Origin: Lentimicrobium sp. L6
GTDB taxonomy: Bacteria; Bacteroidota; Bacteroidia; Bacteroidales; UBA12170
Length of the DNA: 64,000 nt
Assembly (NCBI RefSeq): GCF_013166655.1
Contig: NZ_JABKCA010000001.1
Coordinates: 62,001 to 126,000, forward strand
Direction: 5' to 3'
Shown here: one piece after another, positions 3,919-41,109 of the stretch
Layout of the letters: every line of letters starts with the position of its first letter
Position numbering within the stretch: position 1 is the stretch's first letter
Made by a program: the position numbers and the translations under genes
Notes under the pieces: model-generated
The model's database searches: none
Told to the model about the DNA's origin: nothing
Seen by the model: the letters and a program-made list of their open reading frames with translations, nothing else

Positions 3919-5055
3919 TTATGGCTTAAGTATTTTTTCTGCTATATCTAAATAATGATAAACATCAGAAGGGTGATGATTGATATATTCTGTGCTTCTT
4001 TTATGGCCTAATCTAACAATAACAGCATTTTTATCTTTTATTGGAATAATATATTGTCCTAAAATACCACGCATATAAGGTAATTGCTGACCATTATAAT
4101 TGATGATCCAGTACTGGTAGCCATAATAACTCAAAGGTTTGTTGTCTTCCCCTAATAGCCATTTTGCAGGACTTGTAGCTTCTTTTATATATTTTTCAGA
4201 AACGATTTGTTTTGAATTCCAGCTACCATCATTTAGTATTAATTGACCAAAACGAGCAAAATCTCTAGCGTTAGTGTTAAAACAGCAATAAGCTTTCTCC
4301 ATTCCATCCTTACTGTCTAAATTCCAGAGGGCGTCATGTTCTGAACCTATTTTAGTCCATATTTTCTCTGATGCATAATCGCTGATAGATTTACCTGTAG
4401 CTGCTTGTACAACCATGGCTAATACCTCGGTATTACCGCTTAGATAATTGAATTTCTTTCCCGGTTCTTCTACCACAACTAAAGATGTAATTAACCTGGG
4501 GAGGTCGCTGCCATAATAGGCTTCTGTTGTTAATGAAAATGGGCTAGAATAGGATTCATCCCAATTGAGGCCAGAGCTCATGGTGAGTACATCTCGTATA
4601 CTCAAAACACTATTTTTAGGAGTATTGTATTCAGGAATAAAATCCATTACTTTTTGGTCGAGGCTTTTAATATGCCCCTCATCTAAAGCAATTCCAATCA
4701 GCAGAGAAACTACAGATTTAGCAGCAGAGAAGGAGTTGGACAGGCTTGTTTCACTATAACCATCCCAGTATTCTTCATAGAGGATTTTACCATTTTGTAT
4801 CACCAAATAAGCAATAGGTTCTAAAGCTTCCATCTGCGCTCTATCTTCATTACTTATATTATAGGAATTATAATCTTTGTGTATTCCCCATGGTTCTGCT
4901 ACGTCTGCTTTTATGGTTCTGTTATTGAAAATCTTATAATCATCAATACTTGGAGTCAAATGGATTAATGCTTTTTGCACATATTGAGGTAAGAAAAAAT
5001 AGGTGACAGCTATTAATACAAAGAAGATGAAAGTGATGCGAGTAAATTTTTTCAT
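3919..5055 (-). CDS. Membrane-anchored serine hydrolase, beta-lactamase fold (class C/6-aminohexanoate-dimer hydrolase-like)
   Basis: The 378-residue protein has an N-terminal hydrophobic segment (about residues 8-24) that would anchor or export it, followed by a class C beta-lactamase/esterase domain. The nucleophile motif is S110-A-A-K113 (SFSAAKSV). The tyrosine of the second motif is probably Tyr204 in FNYLSGNTE, as in the NylB/EstB subgroup, where the sequence YSSGNT is usual. Such enzymes hydrolyse esters or amides; the substrate cannot be read from sequence. It stands alone, facing away from purE. Nothing in it suggests a true penicillinase. Confidence is high for the fold and low for the substrate. 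Confidence 0.85.
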   Translation of the reverse strand: MKKFTRITFIFFVLIAVTYFFLPQYVQKALIHLTPSIDDYKIFNNRTIKADVAEPWGIHKDYNSYNISNEDRAQMEALEPIAYLVIQNGKILYEEYWDGYSETSLSNSFSAAKSVVSLLIGIALDEGHIKSLDQKVMDFIPEYNTPKNSVLSIRDVLTMSSGLNWDESYSSPFSLTTEAYYGSDLPRLITSLVVVEEPGKKFNYLSGNTEVLAMVVQAATGKSISDYASEKIWTKIGSEHDALWNLDSKDGMEKAYCCFNTNARDFARFGQLILNDGSWNSKQIVSEKYIKEATSPAKWLLGEDNKPLSYYGYQYWIINYNGQQLPYMRGILGQYIIPIKDKNAVIVRLGHKRSTEYINHHPSDVYHYLDIAEKILKP

Positions 5056-31380: not shown

Positions 31381-31830
31381 CTATTGATCAGAAGCGAACC
31401 ATTCAGCATAGCTGGTTACGGTTTCGCGGAGCATCATATGGTGCAGTTTGATGTGTTCTGGAAGTCTGGGTTTTATTCTTTCTGCAAAATCAATGAGCAT
31501 CATCTCGCTGGTAGGTTGATAAGGAACGGTAACTACTCGTTGGAACATCTCGTCGCTCTGTTTTAGGGCTTCGGCTTTAGCTCCTTTTTCGTTGAGGATT
31601 AAGCAATGGTCCATCTTGTCAACTACCTCTTCTTTCACAATTTTTTTGAGGTCGCCAAAATCCATAACCATACCTAGTTTGGGATTGTTTTCATCCTCAA
31701 TGGGTTTCCCTATTACGGTTACCAATAATTCGTATGAATGCCCGTGAATATGTTTACACAAACCATCATAGCCCATCAGAGCATGTGCGGTTTCAAATTT
31801 AAACTCTTTGGTTAATCTAATATTTGCCAC
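31381..31830 (-). CDS. queD: 6-carboxy-5,6,7,8-tetrahydropterin synthase / PTPS family
   Basis: The 149-residue protein has the zinc histidines (ETAHAL, then HIHGHSY), the catalytic Cys of GLCKHIHGH, the MDFGDLK segment, and MDHCLILNE with the second catalytic His. QueD converts dihydroneopterin triphosphate to CPH4 for queuosine. The eukaryote-type PTPS is its homologue; QueD is favoured by the Cys spacing. The start is GTG at 31830, whose G is the last base of the endonuclease stop TAG, so translation is coupled. No other queuosine gene lies in the window. Confidence 0.88.
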   Translation of the reverse strand: MANIRLTKEFKFETAHALMGYDGLCKHIHGHSYELLVTVIGKPIEDENNPKLGMVMDFGDLKKIVKEEVVDKMDHCLILNEKGAKAEALKQSDEMFQRVVTVPYQPTSEMMLIDFAERIKPRLPEHIKLHHMMLRETVTSYAEWFASDQ

Positions 31831-32915
31831 TATTTGATAAATTTAAAGTGATATAATTGTTGGTTATCGGTGTTCATAATCTGAAGAATATAGCATCCTT
31901 TTTGGGTGTTCGCAATATCCATTTCATAAGTTGAATGGTTCATATTTTCTTGTCTTAATTCTTGACCAGAAATATTGAATAGTTTCAATTGGAATGTTTC
32001 GTGAGTTGCTTCTAACGTATTTAACTTTAGCGTGTTTCCGTTACCTCCAATATAGATATTCATGATTTCATCAATTGAAAGATCAGAAACTGCATTTTCT
32101 GGATCCCAAATCTGATCTACATAATAAGGTCTATCGACAAAAGGATTTCTATTGTCTTGAATACCATAGATGTCATTATTTCTATCCACTTCTTTTTGGC
32201 TCACCGGGTCGTTTCTATGCCATTCTAAAAGCATATTTAAATACCATTCTTCGTAGCAAGGGTAGGAGGTTCCATTTAGTGCATCATCAGAACTTGCAGA
32301 ATTATTCTCCCAACTTGCAATGAGGTTTTCGTATCGAGTGGCCATGTAGAAATAAATTCGGGCAAAGTCTCCTTTGTAAGCATCAATGGGTTCAAATATG
32401 GTTCCGTTAAATCCTGATACGCTGCAGCTTCCTACTTTGGAGCCATTCATACTTGTCCAGCTTGGGCTATTGGTTTCTCCGTAAGGTAAATTTCCTCTTT
32501 TACCATTCACATAACCATCGGTAGGCACAATGTGAATAATGTCGGTAACCATTGGACTTGAATCATCAAACCAACTTTTAGGAAATGAATGCTCTCTATT
32601 ATAGCAATCGTTTTCACTATTATAGTTTCCACATTGGTTAGTACCAAAAGTATATTCATAAGGAGGAGTGCCATCAGGAACGTCGGAATACATATCCCAA
32701 ACCTTTCCATTGGGTTTGTCGTCTGTAGTATAATAATGGTCCCATAAAGAGCCATAAGACTGAATATTATGGTCTTTGATGATATTGTAAAGCTCCGTTT
32801 TTAGGTTTTCCCCTGTAAGACCTTGGGCATCATCGTAATAACCTGAAGGTATTTGAGCGATAGCAAATATTGAAAACAAGTAACTAATCGTTACTAAAAA
32901 GTATGTTTTTTTCAT
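31830..32915 (-). CDS. Secreted endonuclease I with T9SS sorting domain
   Basis: The 361-residue protein has a signal peptide (MKKTYFLVTISYLFSIFAIAQ). The EndA/NucM-type endonuclease I domain (about 25-270) contains YNREHSFPKSWF and the histidine-rich DIIHIVPTDGYVNGKRGNLP, the ββα-metal active site region. Residues from about 285 form a T9SS type A C-terminal domain (LKLFNISGQELRQ ... YHFKFIK). It would be secreted or surface-bound and degrade extracellular DNA. Its ATG overlaps the stop of the MntP-like gene (ATGA) and its stop overlaps queD, so three unlike genes share one coupled transcript. Confidence 0.92.
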   Translation of the reverse strand: MKKTYFLVTISYLFSIFAIAQIPSGYYDDAQGLTGENLKTELYNIIKDHNIQSYGSLWDHYYTTDDKPNGKVWDMYSDVPDGTPPYEYTFGTNQCGNYNSENDCYNREHSFPKSWFDDSSPMVTDIIHIVPTDGYVNGKRGNLPYGETNSPSWTSMNGSKVGSCSVSGFNGTIFEPIDAYKGDFARIYFYMATRYENLIASWENNSASSDDALNGTSYPCYEEWYLNMLLEWHRNDPVSQKEVDRNNDIYGIQDNRNPFVDRPYYVDQIWDPENAVSDLSIDEIMNIYIGGNGNTLKLNTLEATHETFQLKLFNISGQELRQENMNHSTYEMDIANTQKGCYILQIMNTDNQQLYHFKFIK

Positions 32916-33559: not shown

Positions 33560-35239
33560 TTAAGAATAACTAAAGCTACTCCCATCCAGAAACTCTCTAA
33601 GTATTGAAGTAGGAGGGATCTCTTTAGTGAAAATAGGTTTAATATAGGATAGGAACTTTAAAAGCCTTCTGGCTTCGGAGTATTCTGGAACTACTGGGGG
33701 TACGGCTCTTAAAATAGGTTCTGCCCATATTTTTAGCACCCCCAATTCGTATAATAAAGCGGTATTAAACATTACATCGGCTTCTTCCTGGAATGGAAAA
33801 ATATGGGTTTCTTCACCATTTCTAACGCTTGCCCATCGTTGAAGGGTGTCTAATGCTGAGTAATTTCGGTAATTATGGTCTCTTACAATTCTTCTGATTA
33901 GTCTGTTATCTGTGGTAGGTATTCTGTTGGTAGAATCGATACTTAAAGGTGTTAAAGCCGATACGTATATTTTAAATTTTCGATTGTTAGGAATCATTTC
34001 GGATAGCATGGGATTTAAGCCATGGATACCTTCAACCAATAGAATGCTATTTTCTTTTAATTTAAGTTTGGAACCATCGTAGAATTTTTTGCCTGTTGCA
34101 AAAGAAAATTTAGGAAGGTCTATTTCTTTTCCGTCAAACAAATCCAAAAGATTATTGTTGAAGAGTTTGATATCTAAAGCATGAGGGTTTTCAAAATCGA
34201 GTTCACCATTTTCATCTTTTGGAGTCAACTCTCTTTCCACAAAATAATTGTCCATAGAAAGAACAATAGGATCGATGCCTATGACATTGAGTTGAATAGA
34301 GAGTCGTTTAGCAAATGTAGTTTTCCCAGAAGAAGACGGGCCTGAGATAAGTATGAGTTTTAGGTCTTGTCTTCTCTTTCCTACCCTTTCAGCTATACTG
34401 GCTATTTTTTTTTCTTGCAGTGCTTCAGATATTTTAATGACTTGTCCAACCTTTTTTTCTTGTGTAGCTGTGTTTAACTGCCCTACGTTTGGAATTCCAA
34501 TAATGTTTACCCAATCCTTAAATTCGCTGAAAGCTTCGAAGAGTTTGGGTTGATTGATAACCTCCTCCAGTTCGTTCGGATTTTCTGTTTTTGGCGGTAA
34601 TAAAAGCATTCCATCGTGATAAGCCAGTAAATCGAATACTTGAATATAGGAGGTGGAGGGAACTAAATATCCATAAAAATAATTAACGACCCCATCCATT
34701 TGATAAACGGAACTGTAGAATTGTTGACGAGTTTTAATGAGTTCGCATTTGTCATACAATTTATACTCTTCAAATATCTTGATGGCATCTTCAGTAGGGA
34801 TTTCCTCCCGGTTAAAACTAAAATCAGCAGCAACTGTTTTCTGCATTTCTAATTTTAGTTGGGCAGTAATGTCTTTATAGTTAGATTCTTCATCGATACC
34901 TTCGAGTTTGCAATAGAAGCCATTGGATACAGAGTGCTTAATTTTTAATTTGGCTTCGGGAAACATGTCCCGCACCGCTTTAAATAAAATAAAAGACAGG
35001 GAACGCATATACATTCTCTTGCCATCGGGATGTGTATAGTCGATAAATCGAACTCTTTTGGGTTTGTATATGGCATAGTCCAATTCTTTCAAACTATTAT
35101 TGAGCATAGCGCCAAGAATGGGGTATTTTGTCTTTGGTTTTTCTTTTTCAAGGATTTCTAATAAAGTAGTTCCAATGGGATAGTTTTTCTCTACTTCTTT
35201 ATTTTCACAATATATTTTTATTTGCTTTAGCTCTTTCAT
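33560..35239 (-). CDS. Nucleoside kinase with N-terminal TGS domain (uridine-kinase family)
   Basis: The 559-residue protein starts with a TGS-like domain (about 1-65: CENKEVEKNYPIGTTLLEIL). A threonyl-tRNA-synthetase-like second domain follows (about 65-250). Then comes a phosphoribulokinase/uridine kinase domain with P-loop GPSSSGKTTFAKR near residue 305, LSMDNYFV and LVEGIHGLNP. This fusion is a standard Bacteroidales protein, probably phosphorylating uridine/cytidine or another nucleoside. The role of the synthetase-like half is unknown. It stands alone, divergent from the knot-like gene. Confidence 0.9.
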   Translation of the reverse strand: MKELKQIKIYCENKEVEKNYPIGTTLLEILEKEKPKTKYPILGAMLNNSLKELDYAIYKPKRVRFIDYTHPDGKRMYMRSLSFILFKAVRDMFPEAKLKIKHSVSNGFYCKLEGIDEESNYKDITAQLKLEMQKTVAADFSFNREEIPTEDAIKIFEEYKLYDKCELIKTRQQFYSSVYQMDGVVNYFYGYLVPSTSYIQVFDLLAYHDGMLLLPPKTENPNELEEVINQPKLFEAFSEFKDWVNIIGIPNVGQLNTATQEKKVGQVIKISEALQEKKIASIAERVGKRRQDLKLILISGPSSSGKTTFAKRLSIQLNVIGIDPIVLSMDNYFVERELTPKDENGELDFENPHALDIKLFNNNLLDLFDGKEIDLPKFSFATGKKFYDGSKLKLKENSILLVEGIHGLNPMLSEMIPNNRKFKIYVSALTPLSIDSTNRIPTTDNRLIRRIVRDHNYRNYSALDTLQRWASVRNGEETHIFPFQEEADVMFNTALLYELGVLKIWAEPILRAVPPVVPEYSEARRLLKFLSYIKPIFTKEIPPTSILREFLDGSSFSYS

Positions 35240-35350: not shown

Positions 35351-35358
35351 TATTTTTG
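35351..35358 (+). promoter_or_regulatory. Promoter box that fixes the start of the septoil-knot-like gene
   Basis: TATTTTTG ends 4 nt before the ATG at 35363. It lies inside the longer frame that begins with TTG at 35291, so that longer start is unlikely. The spacing implies a leaderless mRNA. Confidence 0.5.
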
Positions 35359-35362
35359 TGAC

Positions 35363-35758
35363 ATGAAGCGATTAAAATACTTGATTTCCTTTACATTATC
35401 TTTATTAATTTTCATGGCTATTGGTTTTACTCCAGCCGATTGTGTACCTGAAGATGGTAAAGAAAGCTGTGATGTTCCTGAGCTTAATAGTGGAGATGAG
35501 AAGATAGATTTCGAAAACTGCACCTATAAAGGTTTTCCATTGCATGGGAAGATTAAATTCGTGGATAATTTCCCTGATATTAAGATAAAGATCGTAGACA
35601 ATTTCCCAGATCTTAAAGTTAAGATGGTAGAGAACTTCCCTGATGATTGTGGGGAATGGAGAGTGGTGGAAAATTTTCCAGATGTTAAGGTTCAAATAGT
35701 AGATAACTTCCCAGATATTAAAGTGAAGTTTGTGGACCATTTCCCTGGGAAACCCTAA
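35363..35758 (+). CDS. Secreted repeat protein resembling the 7(1) septoil-knot family
   Basis: Using the ATG at 35363, the product is 131 residues. A signal sequence (MKRLKYLISFTLSLLIFMAIGF) precedes a short acidic, cysteine-containing linker. The body from about residue 53 is built of seven consecutive units of 10-13 residues: GFPLHGKIKF, then six of the form V-[DE]-[NH]-FP-[DG] followed by alternating hydrophobic and charged residues (for example KIKIVDNFPDL). The fourth turn has a Cys-containing insertion (DDCGEW). Alternation suggests short beta-strands. I recall this pattern as the Septknot/DUF6150-type family, for which a 7(1) knotted fold has been reported. That assignment is from memory and should be checked by profile search. 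Its function is unknown. Confidence 0.75.
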   Translation: MKRLKYLISFTLSLLIFMAIGFTPADCVPEDGKESCDVPELNSGDEKIDFENCTYKGFPLHGKIKFVDNFPDIKIKIVDNFPDLKVKMVENFPDDCGEWRVVENFPDVKVQIVDNFPDIKVKFVDHFPGKP

Positions 35759-35780: not shown

Positions 35781-38700
35781 CTATGCATTCCTTTTTTCAA
35801 TTGGTAAAGTGAATGTAAAAGTAGAGCCTTTATCAACTTTCGATTCTAACCAAATATTTCCTCCCAGTAGTTCTACATAAGCTTTGGTAATAGCTAAACC
35901 TAGTCCTGCACCTTCATATTCTGTAGCGTTTGTTAAATTTGCCTGTACAAATCGGTCGAATATGTTATCTAACTTAGAATGTTGAATGCCTATACCTGTG
36001 TCTTTTACATAGAACTCTAAGTGGTTCTCAATTTTTATATACCCGAATTCTATTTTTCCTTGCTTGGTATATTTTATTGCATTTTTAATCAGATTGGTGA
36101 GGATGGCATAAATTTTCTCTCGATCTGAATGTATGGTGGCTTCCATATCAGGTAATGCGGTATAGCAAGTTAATTCAATTTTTTTCTTTTCGGCTTCCGG
36201 TTTGAAGAAAGTGTACAAGTATTCAATTTGTTTGTTTATTTCAGTATCCTCATTAAATACTTCCATTTGTTCAGCTTCTATTTTAGAAATATCAATTAAG
36301 TCGTTGATGATACTGAGTAATCTATGACCACTTTTTTGGATAATCCCTAAAAATTTTTCTCGTTCATTTTCTTCTATCCCTGGCTCTTTGAGGAGGTCAG
36401 CAAAACCTAATATCCCATTCATTGGAGTTCTGATTTCATGACTCATATTGGCCAAAAATGAAGATTTTAATTGGTCGCTTTCTTCAGCCTTTTCTTTAGC
36501 TTGGATCAGCTCAGTCTCGGTTTGTTTTCTATATATAGCTAAGCCATATAAATACCCAATTTCCTTGATTACTTTTATATCTTCATTGCTGTATCCTTCT
36601 TCTTTATTTGCTAAGGCGATTTGGCCAACCAGTTTGTTTTTAATCATTACAGGAACCGATAGAAAGTTTTCTAATGGTATATGGCCTTTTGGAATGCCTT
36701 GTGATTTTGGATGAATGTTAGGTTTGTTACTGTAAAATGCTTTTTGTGTATTTAGCGCATGACCCCAAAGTGAAGGATAGCCCTCAGCTCTTTTTGGGAA
36801 AATGATAGAACTATTTTCAACATTACACATGTGTTTCATCATTTCACTTAAAGTGTGGGCAATATTGTCTCCTGTTTCAGGATCGATAGAAGAAACAAAC
36901 CCATATTTGCTCTTGGTTAAAGATAATGCGTAGTCATAGGTTAATTTTGCAATAACTTCTATTGAAAGATCACTATTGATAATTTCTTTTGCGAGTTTAG
37001 CAATGATTTTAGAATAATGGTCGCTTCTTTCAGCATTTTCTTTTGCTTTTATTAAGGCTTCTTTAGCTTTTACTTCCTCAGTTATTTCTTTAAACGTGCA
37101 ATAGGTTTGTTTGAATTGGCCATCGGGTGTATATCCAGCGCAGCCTTCATAAGAAACGTCTATTTCGGTCCCATCCTTTTTAACCATCTTGAAAAGCACA
37201 TTGTTTACATTCCCCAAAGCTTTGAATTTGGGGAATCTTTCTTTAAAAAGTTCAACTTGACTTGGATGTAGAAAAGATCCAAAATGCTTACCGATAACTT
37301 CTTCTTTTTTATAGCCTAGTATTTTTGTCCAAGTGGGGTTTACATCCAATAAATCTCCATTTTTGTCAAGGGATTGATAGCCTAACGGGGCATTATCATA
37401 CATGGCGCGGTATTTTTCTTCGCTCTGTTGTAATGCCAATTGTGTTTTTTTAATCTTATCAATATCTGTATGAGTTCCAAGCATTCTGAGTGGTTTTCCA
37501 TCTTCTGTATATTCTACTATACTACCCATGGAAAGTATCCACTTCCATTTTCCTTGTTTTGTTTTAATTCGAAATTCAATACGATAAGCTGGAATTTTAC
37601 CTTCTATATAATCGGAATAGTTTTTCAAAACATGATTAACATCATTCGGATGCAATCTGTTGGTCCATTTTTCATTAGTTTCAATAAATGTTTTCGGGTT
37701 ATGACCTATCATGATGATGTAGCTGTCACTTACTTTAATTTCACCAGTTTGTATGTTGAAGTCATAAATGCCTTGTTTGCTGGAGTCTAAAGCCAATCGC
37801 AATGTTTCTTCACTTTCACTTAAAGCTTTTTGGGTGCTTACTCGTTCTGTGATGTCAGCACCAGAGGAAACGAATCGTATTGCTTTCCCATTTTCATCCC
37901 TAAGGGTAGCATTATACCAAGCAATGATTCTTTTTTCTCCATCTTTTCTAATTATGGGGTTTTCAAAATATTCAATGAGATTTGTTTCATCTTCTAAAGC
38001 TTCATTAAATACACTTTTTACTTGATCGATATTATGTTGAGGTATGAAATGGTCGAACCAGTTTTTACCAATAATTTCTTCTTCTTTATATCCTAAAATA
38101 TCACATCCTTTTTGATTGACTAGAACAACATTTTGATTTATATCTAATGCAATAAACATGACCCCAGCAATTTCCAAGTATTGTTTTGATATTTGTTTTT
38201 GAAACTGTAATAGCTGCTCCGCTTTTTTAATATCAGTAAGGTCAATATGCGTTCCAATAATTCTGATTGGTTTATTTTCTTTATTTACAGTAACCTTTGC
38301 ACGTGCTAAAATATCCACCCAATGACCCTTTTTATGCTTCATGCGAAATTCAACTTCAAATCGAGGTATTTCACCTTTGATATGTTTGTCAAGCATTTTC
38401 CATGAGCGCTTAATATCATCAGGATGAGTTAAATCTTCCCATGTTTTGAAGGTGTTTTCCAATTCAGAATCCTCATAACCTAGCATGCGTTTCCAACCAG
38501 GGGAGTAATATATTTCATTAGTTATCAAGTTCCAATCAAATAATCCATCGTGAGTAGCTTCCATGGCCAGGTTAAAACGTTCCTCACTTTTAAATAGTGC
38601 TTTTTCAGTGGAAACTCTAGAGCTTATATCCTTTATTGCGGTGAATTTTAGCTTTCTATCATTTTTATAAAGAATTCTTTCTTGTACTTCGCAGTGGAAT

Positions 38701-40937
38701 TTACTTTTGTCTTTTCTTTGTGCTGTGGTTTGATATGGTTGAAGGTTTTCTGTTTTTAGCTTGTTGATAATGAGCTCTCTGTATTCAGGTGCTATCCATT
38801 CGATGGCGTTTTTGCCAATAGCTTCTTTATCAGAATAACCAAACGTTTTTCTTGCAGTTTCATTTTGGTCAATACACATGCCATTTTCAGATATGAGAAT
38901 AGATTCAAATGTAGCTGCAGACAAGGTTTTGTATCTTTCTTCTTGCTCTTTTATTGATTTAGCGGCTAATTCTAGTTCGGTGATATCCTTATCAATCCCA
39001 ACTACTAAAATAGCTTCCCCTTTCACATCTCTTTTTACTTTATAATTAGCAGAAATAATTTTTGTGATTCCGTTTTCAGTAATGAGCCTGAATTTTTGCT
39101 GGAAAGATTCCTCAGTAGACTTTAAATTCCGATTGAATGTTTCGAAATATTCCTCACTGTCGTCAGGGTGAATGTGTTTTTTAAAGATATCTAAGTCAGT
39201 ATTCTTTTCATAATGAACATCTCGTATATCATAGGCCCCTTTCGACCAATGATTTTTTCCTGTTTTGGGCTCATAGGTCCAGCTACCAGACTTGCTGATT
39301 CTTTCTGTATCTTGGAGTAAGTTGTAGGCGGAGATAATCTCTTTTTCAGCGTTTTTAATTTCTGTGATATCGGTAATAATGATACCCAATTGTTTCCCTT
39401 TGGAAGTATCAAAAGTAAATATCGTTTCAATAATATCTTTCTTTTTCTTCGTTTTTGCCTGAATAATAGTAGTGAAGTTTTTATCTAAAATAACATGTTC
39501 TTTTTTAGTGAGTATGCCGAGTATGCTTTTTTTTAAGCTTTCCTTTGTGTTTGGGATTTCCTTCTTAAGGTTTGACATTTTTAACATTAAATCCCATGCG
39601 TGTAGTCCTTTAGTTTCGCTGCTGGTTACTCCAAAAATATTTTCAAACTCTTTGTTAATGAAAGTTATCTTTCCGTTATTGTCAACAATAGCTACTCCTT
39701 CTGAAGAGTAATCCACAAAGTTTCTGAATTTTTCTTCGTTTTCTTTTAAAATAGTATTATTTAAATTTAATTGTGTGATATCTAGAGAGGTGCTTAGGTA
39801 AATATTATCACCATTTACATCAATTTCTTTTATTATACTCATTAATACATCGAATGTGCTTCCATCTTTTCTTTTGGCTAAAAACTCTATTTCTAGACTT
39901 CCATTTTTGTTTACTTCATCAATAATTTGCTTTGGAAGTTCTGGGTTGAAACAATGATCCTTAGGGTTAGATAGCAATAATTCATCTAAGGAATGATATC
40001 CCCACCTCTTTAAATACTCTTTATTTGCATAGACAAACTCCCCTTTTTCATTTACAATATGATAACCATTTAGGGAGTTTTCTATCGAATTGTTTATGGT
40101 CCTATATTGGTTTTCTAGTGTTTTGCTTTTAGTGATGTCATCAGATATAATTTGAACACCCATTAATTCATTTTTGCTATTATATATGCAAGTGTAAATA
40201 CTTTTAAACCAGAAAGAGGCATTAGGGAGCTTTATATGATCTACATATTCTTTTGAATCATTATATTGAAGAGCATGTTTGAATCTTTTGGTGTATTCCT
40301 CAGCATGTTCTTTCGGGAAGATTTCAAGAAATGATTTTCCTTCAAAATCCTCACTTTTTCCTCCCATATTTTTAGCAGCTATATCATTATAGGAAATAAC
40401 TATTCCATCTTTAGAATAGTAGCCTACCCCAAAAGCCGAGCTTTGGTGTAATAGTCTATATTTTTCTTCACTTTCTTCTAATCTACTTTTTGTTGCTTTT
40501 AACTCACCTGGTTCTGAATGACTTGTTTTTGCATCATTATCAATTTCTGTAAATTGGTAAATCGTATTTTCCTTGTTTAATTGATTCAGTTTTTGGATGC
40601 CATAATTTGTTTTTATAATGTCTTTTGAGGAGTTCTTAAAAGCAAATTCAAAGGTTTTAGGAATAGAGCTTTGTAGGTTACCTAAAATATCTTGATTTTG
40701 TTTCTGAAAATCTAAAACTAAATCTGTTTCGGTTCCAGCTTCGGTGGAAGAATCCAATATGGAAATAAACGAGGAATTGTATTGATAAATATGACCAGAG
40801 TTATTAGTAATAAACTGAGCCCGGTTATTGTGAAAAGCAGAGTGCTTTTCAGCTTTCAAAGACTTTGATTTTTCAGCTTTTAGTTGTAATTCTAACTCTT
40901 TAATTCTAGCTTTTAATTTTCCTATCTGATTTTCCAT
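35781..40937 (-). CDS. Giant cytoplasmic multi-PAS/GAF sensor histidine kinase
   Basis: The ATG at 40937 is chosen over TTG 40991, giving 1718 residues. An N-terminal coiled coil (about 2-35) and a possible degenerate PAS (40-135) are followed by about nine PAS domains between residues 150 and 1310. They start with EEKYRLLHQS and end with EEKYRAMYDNAP, and several have PAC tails such as RIIGTHIDLTDIKKAE. A GAF domain spans about 1320-1470. HisKA carries His1500 (MSHEIRTP). The ATPase has NAIKYT, DTGIGI and GAGLGL. No membrane helix, receiver or HPt domain is present. The input is unknown; some PAS domains may bind heme, flavin or small ligands. No response regulator is near, so it is an orphan kinase. 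It converges on the knot-like gene. Confidence 0.92.
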   Translation of the reverse strand: MENQIGKLKARIKELELQLKAEKSKSLKAEKHSAFHNNRAQFITNNSGHIYQYNSSFISILDSSTEAGTETDLVLDFQKQNQDILGNLQSSIPKTFEFAFKNSSKDIIKTNYGIQKLNQLNKENTIYQFTEIDNDAKTSHSEPGELKATKSRLEESEEKYRLLHQSSAFGVGYYSKDGIVISYNDIAAKNMGGKSEDFEGKSFLEIFPKEHAEEYTKRFKHALQYNDSKEYVDHIKLPNASFWFKSIYTCIYNSKNELMGVQIISDDITKSKTLENQYRTINNSIENSLNGYHIVNEKGEFVYANKEYLKRWGYHSLDELLLSNPKDHCFNPELPKQIIDEVNKNGSLEIEFLAKRKDGSTFDVLMSIIKEIDVNGDNIYLSTSLDITQLNLNNTILKENEEKFRNFVDYSSEGVAIVDNNGKITFINKEFENIFGVTSSETKGLHAWDLMLKMSNLKKEIPNTKESLKKSILGILTKKEHVILDKNFTTIIQAKTKKKKDIIETIFTFDTSKGKQLGIIITDITEIKNAEKEIISAYNLLQDTERISKSGSWTYEPKTGKNHWSKGAYDIRDVHYEKNTDLDIFKKHIHPDDSEEYFETFNRNLKSTEESFQQKFRLITENGITKIISANYKVKRDVKGEAILVVGIDKDITELELAAKSIKEQEERYKTLSAATFESILISENGMCIDQNETARKTFGYSDKEAIGKNAIEWIAPEYRELIINKLKTENLQPYQTTAQRKDKSKFHCEVQERILYKNDRKLKFTAIKDISSRVSTEKALFKSEERFNLAMEATHDGLFDWNLITNEIYYSPGWKRMLGYEDSELENTFKTWEDLTHPDDIKRSWKMLDKHIKGEIPRFEVEFRMKHKKGHWVDILARAKVTVNKENKPIRIIGTHIDLTDIKKAEQLLQFQKQISKQYLEIAGVMFIALDINQNVVLVNQKGCDILGYKEEEIIGKNWFDHFIPQHNIDQVKSVFNEALEDETNLIEYFENPIIRKDGEKRIIAWYNATLRDENGKAIRFVSSGADITERVSTQKALSESEETLRLALDSSKQGIYDFNIQTGEIKVSDSYIIMIGHNPKTFIETNEKWTNRLHPNDVNHVLKNYSDYIEGKIPAYRIEFRIKTKQGKWKWILSMGSIVEYTEDGKPLRMLGTHTDIDKIKKTQLALQQSEEKYRAMYDNAPLGYQSLDKNGDLLDVNPTWTKILGYKKEEVIGKHFGSFLHPSQVELFKERFPKFKALGNVNNVLFKMVKKDGTEIDVSYEGCAGYTPDGQFKQTYCTFKEITEEVKAKEALIKAKENAERSDHYSKIIAKLAKEIINSDLSIEVIAKLTYDYALSLTKSKYGFVSSIDPETGDNIAHTLSEMMKHMCNVENSSIIFPKRAEGYPSLWGHALNTQKAFYSNKPNIHPKSQGIPKGHIPLENFLSVPVMIKNKLVGQIALANKEEGYSNEDIKVIKEIGYLYGLAIYRKQTETELIQAKEKAEESDQLKSSFLANMSHEIRTPMNGILGFADLLKEPGIEENEREKFLGIIQKSGHRLLSIINDLIDISKIEAEQMEVFNEDTEINKQIEYLYTFFKPEAEKKKIELTCYTALPDMEATIHSDREKIYAILTNLIKNAIKYTKQGKIEFGYIKIENHLEFYVKDTGIGIQHSKLDNIFDRFVQANLTNATEYEGAGLGLAITKAYVELLGGNIWLESKVDKGSTFTFTLPIEKRNA

Positions 40938-41109
40938 AATAGCCCATGTCAATAACCCTATAAATATAGATGTTATTGGCCTAATTACCAAATTTCAGCT
41001 CATAGTATTCATAATAGTGTCATAGTACCCAAGTACTTTTTAAAAGAGAAATATTTAAAAATAAAATATTTTAGTGGTTTATGATAAAGATAATATAGCG
41101 ATATCGTAA

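Follow-up and report, generated by a model that had tools for sequence, protein, structure and literature searches.

An open reading frame at positions 35363..35758 (+ strand) of the window, as the whole 64-kb stretch of analysed DNA is called here, encodes a protein of 131 residues plus a stop codon. This protein, P0001, is by its sequence and its predicted model a clear relative of Q9PR55 (UU089.1) of Ureaplasma, which of all proteins solved so far is the most tightly knotted. Sequence comparison adds something new about proteins of the Q9PR55 type: they appear to form a large family in which nearly all members are predicted to be exported, a pair of cysteines is conserved and the spacing of motifs is near-invariant, and which is almost unannotated in bacteria. 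P0001 is read here as an exported, disulfide-locked, knotted beta-repeat protein acting as a passive accessory body, and this reading as a whole is favoured with restrained confidence.

Gene and genomic setting

The position given in the first-pass annotation (35363-35758, + strand) was exact, and its description of the gene as standing alone holds, both flanking genes being on the - strand, one divergent and one convergent. The divergent neighbour (33560-35239, -) encodes a protein with a PRK/uridine-kinase domain, and the convergent one (35781-40991, -) a histidine kinase of 1736 residues containing numerous PAS domains and a single GAF domain. The P0001 copy is chromosomal and not located in a prophage, and its closest relative has similarly arranged flanking genes. 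Elsewhere in the window (31830-32915, -) lies a gene for a putative endonuclease-I-like secreted protein, the C-terminal tail of which resembles a type IX secretion sorting domain.

It had also been proposed that the gene has its own promoter box, which is borne out only in part. The sequence TATTTTTG at 35351..35358 (+) does fit the Bacteroidota -7 box TAnnTTTG and as a promoter would yield a leaderless transcript. It is nevertheless a weak candidate, because such sites are about as frequent in the 64-kb window (108 found) as chance would give (approximately 93 expected) and because the box is conserved only in a relative with 89% identity.

In comparison with this 89%-identical relative the repeat domain shows a dN of 0.024 and saturated dS (pN 0.024 vs pS 0.85), the N-terminal 46 residues being looser (dN 0.18). 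The low dN next to saturated synonymous sites, a sign of very strong purifying selection, indicates that the gene is real and that selection keeps the domain; the intact open reading frame and the existence of homologues support the gene as well.

Repeat architecture and conserved residues

Three parts are recognised in P0001, all on the + strand. A hydrophobic export signal is predicted at residues 1-26 (35363..35440), in agreement with the signal peptide named in the first-pass annotation; a helix at residues 3-20 in model 1 of the first AlphaFold run and the hydrophobic N-terminus of most homologues are consistent with it. The linker (residues 27-46, 35441..35500) contains a second, clade-specific cysteine pair, C27 and C36. 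The conserved repeat domain (residues 47-131, 35501..35755), delimited by AlphaFold and by Foldseek and VIA matches to Q9PR55, comprises seven units. Unit 1 (CTYKGFPLHGK, 35519..35551), which carries C53 and the invariant L60 and G62, is divergent. It is followed by unit 2 (IKFVDNFPDIK, 35552..35584), unit 3 (IKIVDNFPDLK, 35585..35617) and unit 4 with an insert (VKMVENFPD-DCGEW, 35618..35659), where C96, G97 and W99 are conserved at 98-100%, and then by unit 5 (RVVENFPDVK, 35660..35689), unit 6 (VQIVDNFPDIK, 35690..35722) and unit 7 (VKFVDHFPGKP, 35723..35755). The cysteine-containing insert in one turn, described earlier, is thus found as DCGEW at residues 95-99.

The domain had previously been described as seven near-identical units with the core V-D/E-N-F-P-D. 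Seven units of about 11 residues are indeed marked by seven FP dipeptides (residues 58, 70, 81, 92, 105, 116 and 127, at spacings of 12, 11, 11, 13, 11 and 11 residues), yet the near-identity was overstated, since V[D/E]NFPD is exact in five units, the last reads VDHFPG and the first is divergent. The repeat is not due to chance: the ungapped self-similarity score of 133 far exceeds those of shuffled sequences (mean 22.8, sd 4.7, maximum 54), 0 of 5000 of which reach it.

Across the family, the conserved repeat positions are V, F, P and D together with a mostly conserved K, all structural in character, and the conserved positions outside the repeat are C53, L60, G62, C96, G97, W99 and G129. 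No polar catalytic cluster was found among the conserved positions of 104 domains. In the same 104 domains C53 is conserved in 96% and C96 in 98%, and the equivalents of both are absent together from L015, from domain 1 of the two-domain protein L144 and from DUF6150. Such joint loss is as expected for a disulfide pair, and C53 and C96 are accordingly expected to be bonded to each other. Spacing, counted across 112 distinct proteins, is similarly strict, with exactly 36 residues from LxG to CGxW in 109 of the 112 domains and 31 from CGxW to the final FPG in 106 of them.

Relationship to Q9PR55

When the PDB was searched with P0001 by phmmer, one real match was obtained, UU089.1/Q9PR55 of Ureaplasma (E 1.2e-9), and a profile of 87 homologous domains matched UU089.1 at residues 27-85 (E 8.3e-14). 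The 7(1)-knotted core of Q9PR55 was placed at residues 27-83 by Brems et al. 2022 (PMC9278004), so the homology covers the entire knotted core. Later crystallographic confirmation of the 7(1) knot is cited in PMC13352647 and PMC11223836, and the titles of the PDB entries matched by Foldseek also present Q9PR55 as a 7(1) knot; the entries of this protein are 8iwa, 8iwb, 8iwc, 8jrm and 8w68. The repeat V-x-x-F-P-D-x-K and the position of the central insert are common to both proteins. Q9PR55 differs in its length of 89 residues (131 in P0001), with only about 13-26 of them before the domain, in having no CGxW motif and in an insert region 2 residues longer. As unit 7 lies beyond the last UU089.1 residue matched (85/89), the C-terminal unit is extra in P0001.

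The fold was predicted with AlphaFold for residues 47-131 from an alignment of 87 sequences. The resulting domain model is confident (pLDDT 97.4, pTM 0.85, all five models within 92-97) and has six strands, each four or five residues long. With this model Foldseek retrieved four chains of Q9PR55 (TM 0.53-0.62, rmsd 3.2-3.5 A, E 1e-5 to 1e-4) and, below E 4, nothing else in the PDB; no solenoid family appeared in the search. VIA-align (Z 6.0) superposed 57 residues at 2.0 A, pairing residues 8-78 of the model with 16-89 of the chain, and kept the register of the sequence alignment, central insert included. Although this Z is middling in absolute terms, nothing unrelated scores. A fold search of BFVD gave nothing at E below 0.2. 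The domain model supersedes a first run on the full precursor with 14 sequences, in which four of the five models were poor and one was fair, and which could be fitted to Q9PR55 only with the register shifted. The link to septoil knots, suggested in the first-pass annotation together with an AlphaFold prediction as its check, is therefore upheld for the family by sequence and for the predicted fold by Foldseek and VIA-align, the significant PDB matches being to Q9PR55 only.

The other check proposed there, against Pfam Septknot/DUF6150 profiles, turned out differently. Searched with P0001 at E up to 10, Pfam gave no family and no model named Septknot, and PF19647 (DUF6150) does not match at 35363-35758, where its gathering score of 27 bits is not reached. 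A Pfam search with 55 homologues gave weak and scattered matches only, none of them informative. An NCBIfam match of P0001 to Xpf was rejected as being at chance level (E 0.006; 16 bits, where the cut-off is 300).

Nevertheless, profile comparison shows DUF6150 to be a distant sister family, of which P0001 is not a member by the Pfam threshold. The profile of the P0001 family weakly matches, at E of about 1e-5 to 1e-10, a set of genes whose scores at the same coordinates exceed the PF19647 cut-off, and hhalign of the two families gives a probability of 94 and E 1e-7. DUF6150 proteins are exported and comprise three YESQAD units, a G-K-W segment and three further units, so that the layout of 3 units, G-x-W insert and 3 units is as in the P0001 family; they differ in having YESQAD in place of xNFPD and no cysteine pair. 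The fold is probably the same in both. A search of the PDB with the DUF6150 profile did not retrieve Q9PR55.

Knot type

The domain has seven strand-turn units of 11 residues, four before and three after the CGxW insert. In the proposed structure the chain winds as a (2,n) torus knot, for which 7(1) is the most likely type. That the full Q9PR55 core is aligned favours 7(1), and P0001 itself, judged by its model, is probably of this type. A disulfide between C53 and C96, formed after export, would then lock the segment from unit 1 to the insert.

A lesser, though still credible, possibility is that P0001 has the same fold but forms a 5(1) torus knot, its C-terminal part making no equivalent of the last Q9PR55 winding. 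The cyanobacterial protein P73136, published as a probable Q9PR55 homologue with 48% identity, is predicted to be 5(1) with a core at 45-94 and, with 112 residues, equals the cyanobacterial members found here in length (PMC9278004); by this published description it differs from the knot type preferred for P0001. Furthermore, a TM of 0.55-0.6 to Q9PR55 is modest given 37% identity, which implies that part of the P0001 path differs, and UU089.1 has no counterpart of the C-terminal unit. AlphaFold is also weak on topology (PMC10672856). Against 5(1), VIA aligns the high-confidence model to residue 89, the last of Q9PR55, in the homologous register, and if repeats are counted as for designed torus knots (PMC10598012), seven units agree with a (2,7) torus. 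Since AlphaFold can misjudge topology, and since P0001 is made of short tandem strand-turn units, an ordinary unknotted beta-solenoid of the pentapeptide-repeat kind, resembling Q9PR55 only because both have simple repeats, has to be weighed too, but it is improbable. The only solved relative is Q9PR55, the knot of which is experimental (8iwa, 8jrm), and the match to it is in register with the central insert included. Moreover, open solenoids are expected to vary in coil number, whereas here the spacing is fixed in 106-109 of 112 domains and the unit number in 106 of 112, with one natural loss of a unit (L077), which bears on topology indirectly. The fold search returned no solenoid family. 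The Knotted Solenoid of Sikora et al. 2026 (PMC13123833) is likewise a repeat-built beta protein with a knot, yet of a different fold, a 3(1) trefoil described as confined to a specific bacterial group; it was not matched in the Foldseek search with the P0001 domain model. The 7(1) type stays preferred.

Distribution, export and variants of the family

Relatives of P0001 were found in GTDB species genomes at least 488 times, across at least seven phyla; the best 80 of these belong, going by their record titles, to Bacteroidota, Chlorobiota, Ignavibacteriota, Acidobacteriota, Cyanobacteriota, Pseudomonadota, Spirochaetota and Myxococcota. Matches occur in 47 of 295 genomes of the window's own order and in 12 of 296 of a sample of its phylum, some of the weak matches being DUF6150 genes, and the E. 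coli genomes searched gave none. In the tree the phyla are intermixed (20 label changes, where 7 is the minimum), the tree being poorly resolved on account of the few columns.

A hydrophobic N-terminus is present in nearly all members. A group of Bacteroidales proteins (L091, L108, L114, L013, L015, L016, L119, L124 and L125) starts directly at the domain with no export signal, the cysteine pair being kept in most, and the viral members L155, L156 and L158 also have no signal, so the function cannot always require export. Two members from Acidobacteria (L038:5950-6276 and L074:6001-6327) begin with twin-arginine-like signals, MRRRDLLKSL and MKRRDLLISL, which would mean export after folding.

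Several variants of the repeat domain were encountered. In L077:5992-6324 exactly one 11-residue unit has been lost from the second half, which amounts to a natural experiment on knot type. In Sutterella (L081:2513-2703 and 4070-4393) an intact gene and a remnant copy are adjacent; in the remnant, the signal and opening units are joined with the final ones, as though repeats had recombined with each other. Two complete tandem repeat domains are present in L036:5923-6522 (+, 200 residues), L011:1138-1740 (+, 201 residues) and L144:270-866 (-, 199 residues), and domain 1 of L144 has neither conserved cysteine. The composite protein knots published so far are double trefoils (PMC9278004, PMC11187310); the three fusions may be doubly knotted and, if each domain is knotted, would be more complex than these.

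Phage and prophage copies

P0001 matches PHROG phrog_6462, of unknown function (E 2.6e-27, residues 51-130 on profile 23-102 of 103), and fourteen IMG/VR contigs carry a gene of the family. In L157, L159 and L161 the same two baseplate-hub gene families flank the gene, which runs antisense to them; elsewhere it stands beside a P2-like gene D (L158), beside an Rz spanin and endolysin (L160), beside a minor tail gene (L162-L164) or beside a terminase (L155, L156). In two phage-plasmids of Leptospira weilii (L165:4932-5246; L167) it belongs to the tail operon in sense orientation, baseplate J being the next gene, and the copy carries a predicted export signal. Among 50,697 deposited phage genomes, 0 had a match to the family.

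Possible function

What such a protein does can be stated only tentatively. P0001 might be a passive, very stable binder or blocker encoded by an accessory gene and usually acting outside the cytoplasm. As a non-enzyme it would present a rigid body, resistant to unfolding and proteases, that binds or blocks a target there, and it would possibly have spread as an accessory gene, including as prophage cargo. Accessory spread is suggested by the patchy distribution, the intermixed phyla in the tree and the locations in prophages and phage-plasmids. A JBC study of 2024 reportedly found Q9PR55 to be unusually resistant to urea and ClpAP, which fits the picture of a stable body. Neighbouring genes were also compared. 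At 9 Bacteroidota/Chlorobiota loci (L026, L027, L028, L030, L034, L039, L044, L053 and L077) the gene immediately upstream, on the same strand, encodes a glutathione peroxidase homologue; urocanase recurs at 7 loci, mostly of Ignavibacteria, and peptide deformylase at 4 of Spirochaetota. As these upstream genes recur only within clades, there is no universal genomic partner.

Other functions have been considered. A phage-type exported cargo that excludes other phages at the envelope or aids lysis, with the chromosomal copies domesticated, is the rather unlikely but serious candidate suggested by the phrog_6462 match of P0001, by the fourteen viral contigs with the gene inside phage regions (baseplate hub, gene D, Rz/endolysin, terminase) and by the exported-type Leptospira weilii copy before baseplate J. 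Most copies, P0001 included, nevertheless lie among unrelated housekeeping genes, some viral copies have no export signal, and the deposited phage genomes contained no match. It is far less probable that the protein is a structural part of the phage tail, such as a baseplate component, recruited by cells: several phages that are not related to one another have the gene next to baseplate hub and wedge genes, and in the Leptospira tail operon it is in sense, but the copy there has an export signal, most viral copies are antisense to structural genes and in other phages the neighbours are lysis or terminase genes. A stacked ladder of aspartates, one FPD per unit, could in principle bind divalent cations and make the protein a metal store or sensor, as D72, D83 and D118 are conserved at 100% and D107 at 97%. 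This is improbable as well, given the mostly conserved lysine two residues after each aspartate and the F-P-D turn, which suggests a structural cap. The passive binder or blocker described above remains the preferred function.

Significance

Q9PR55, the most complex protein knot solved, stands nearly alone in the literature cited here. It can now be placed beside a widespread and mostly exported family with phage-borne members, one-unit deletions, two-domain fusions and a conserved cysteine pair. More boldly, and with considerable doubt, the whole may be seen as an exported, disulfide-locked family of torus knots occurring in at least seven phyla and in prophages, with winding of 5(1), 7(1) and possibly 9(1), L077 included, and with fusions of 10-14 crossings. 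If this is true, the composite knots of the fusions exceed in crossings any protein knot in the literature cited here. The family offers natural material on the folding of knots, including folding after export in unfolded form, and it allows one to ask whether a disulfide locks a knot, how the loss of a repeat changes knot type and what purpose a knot serves.
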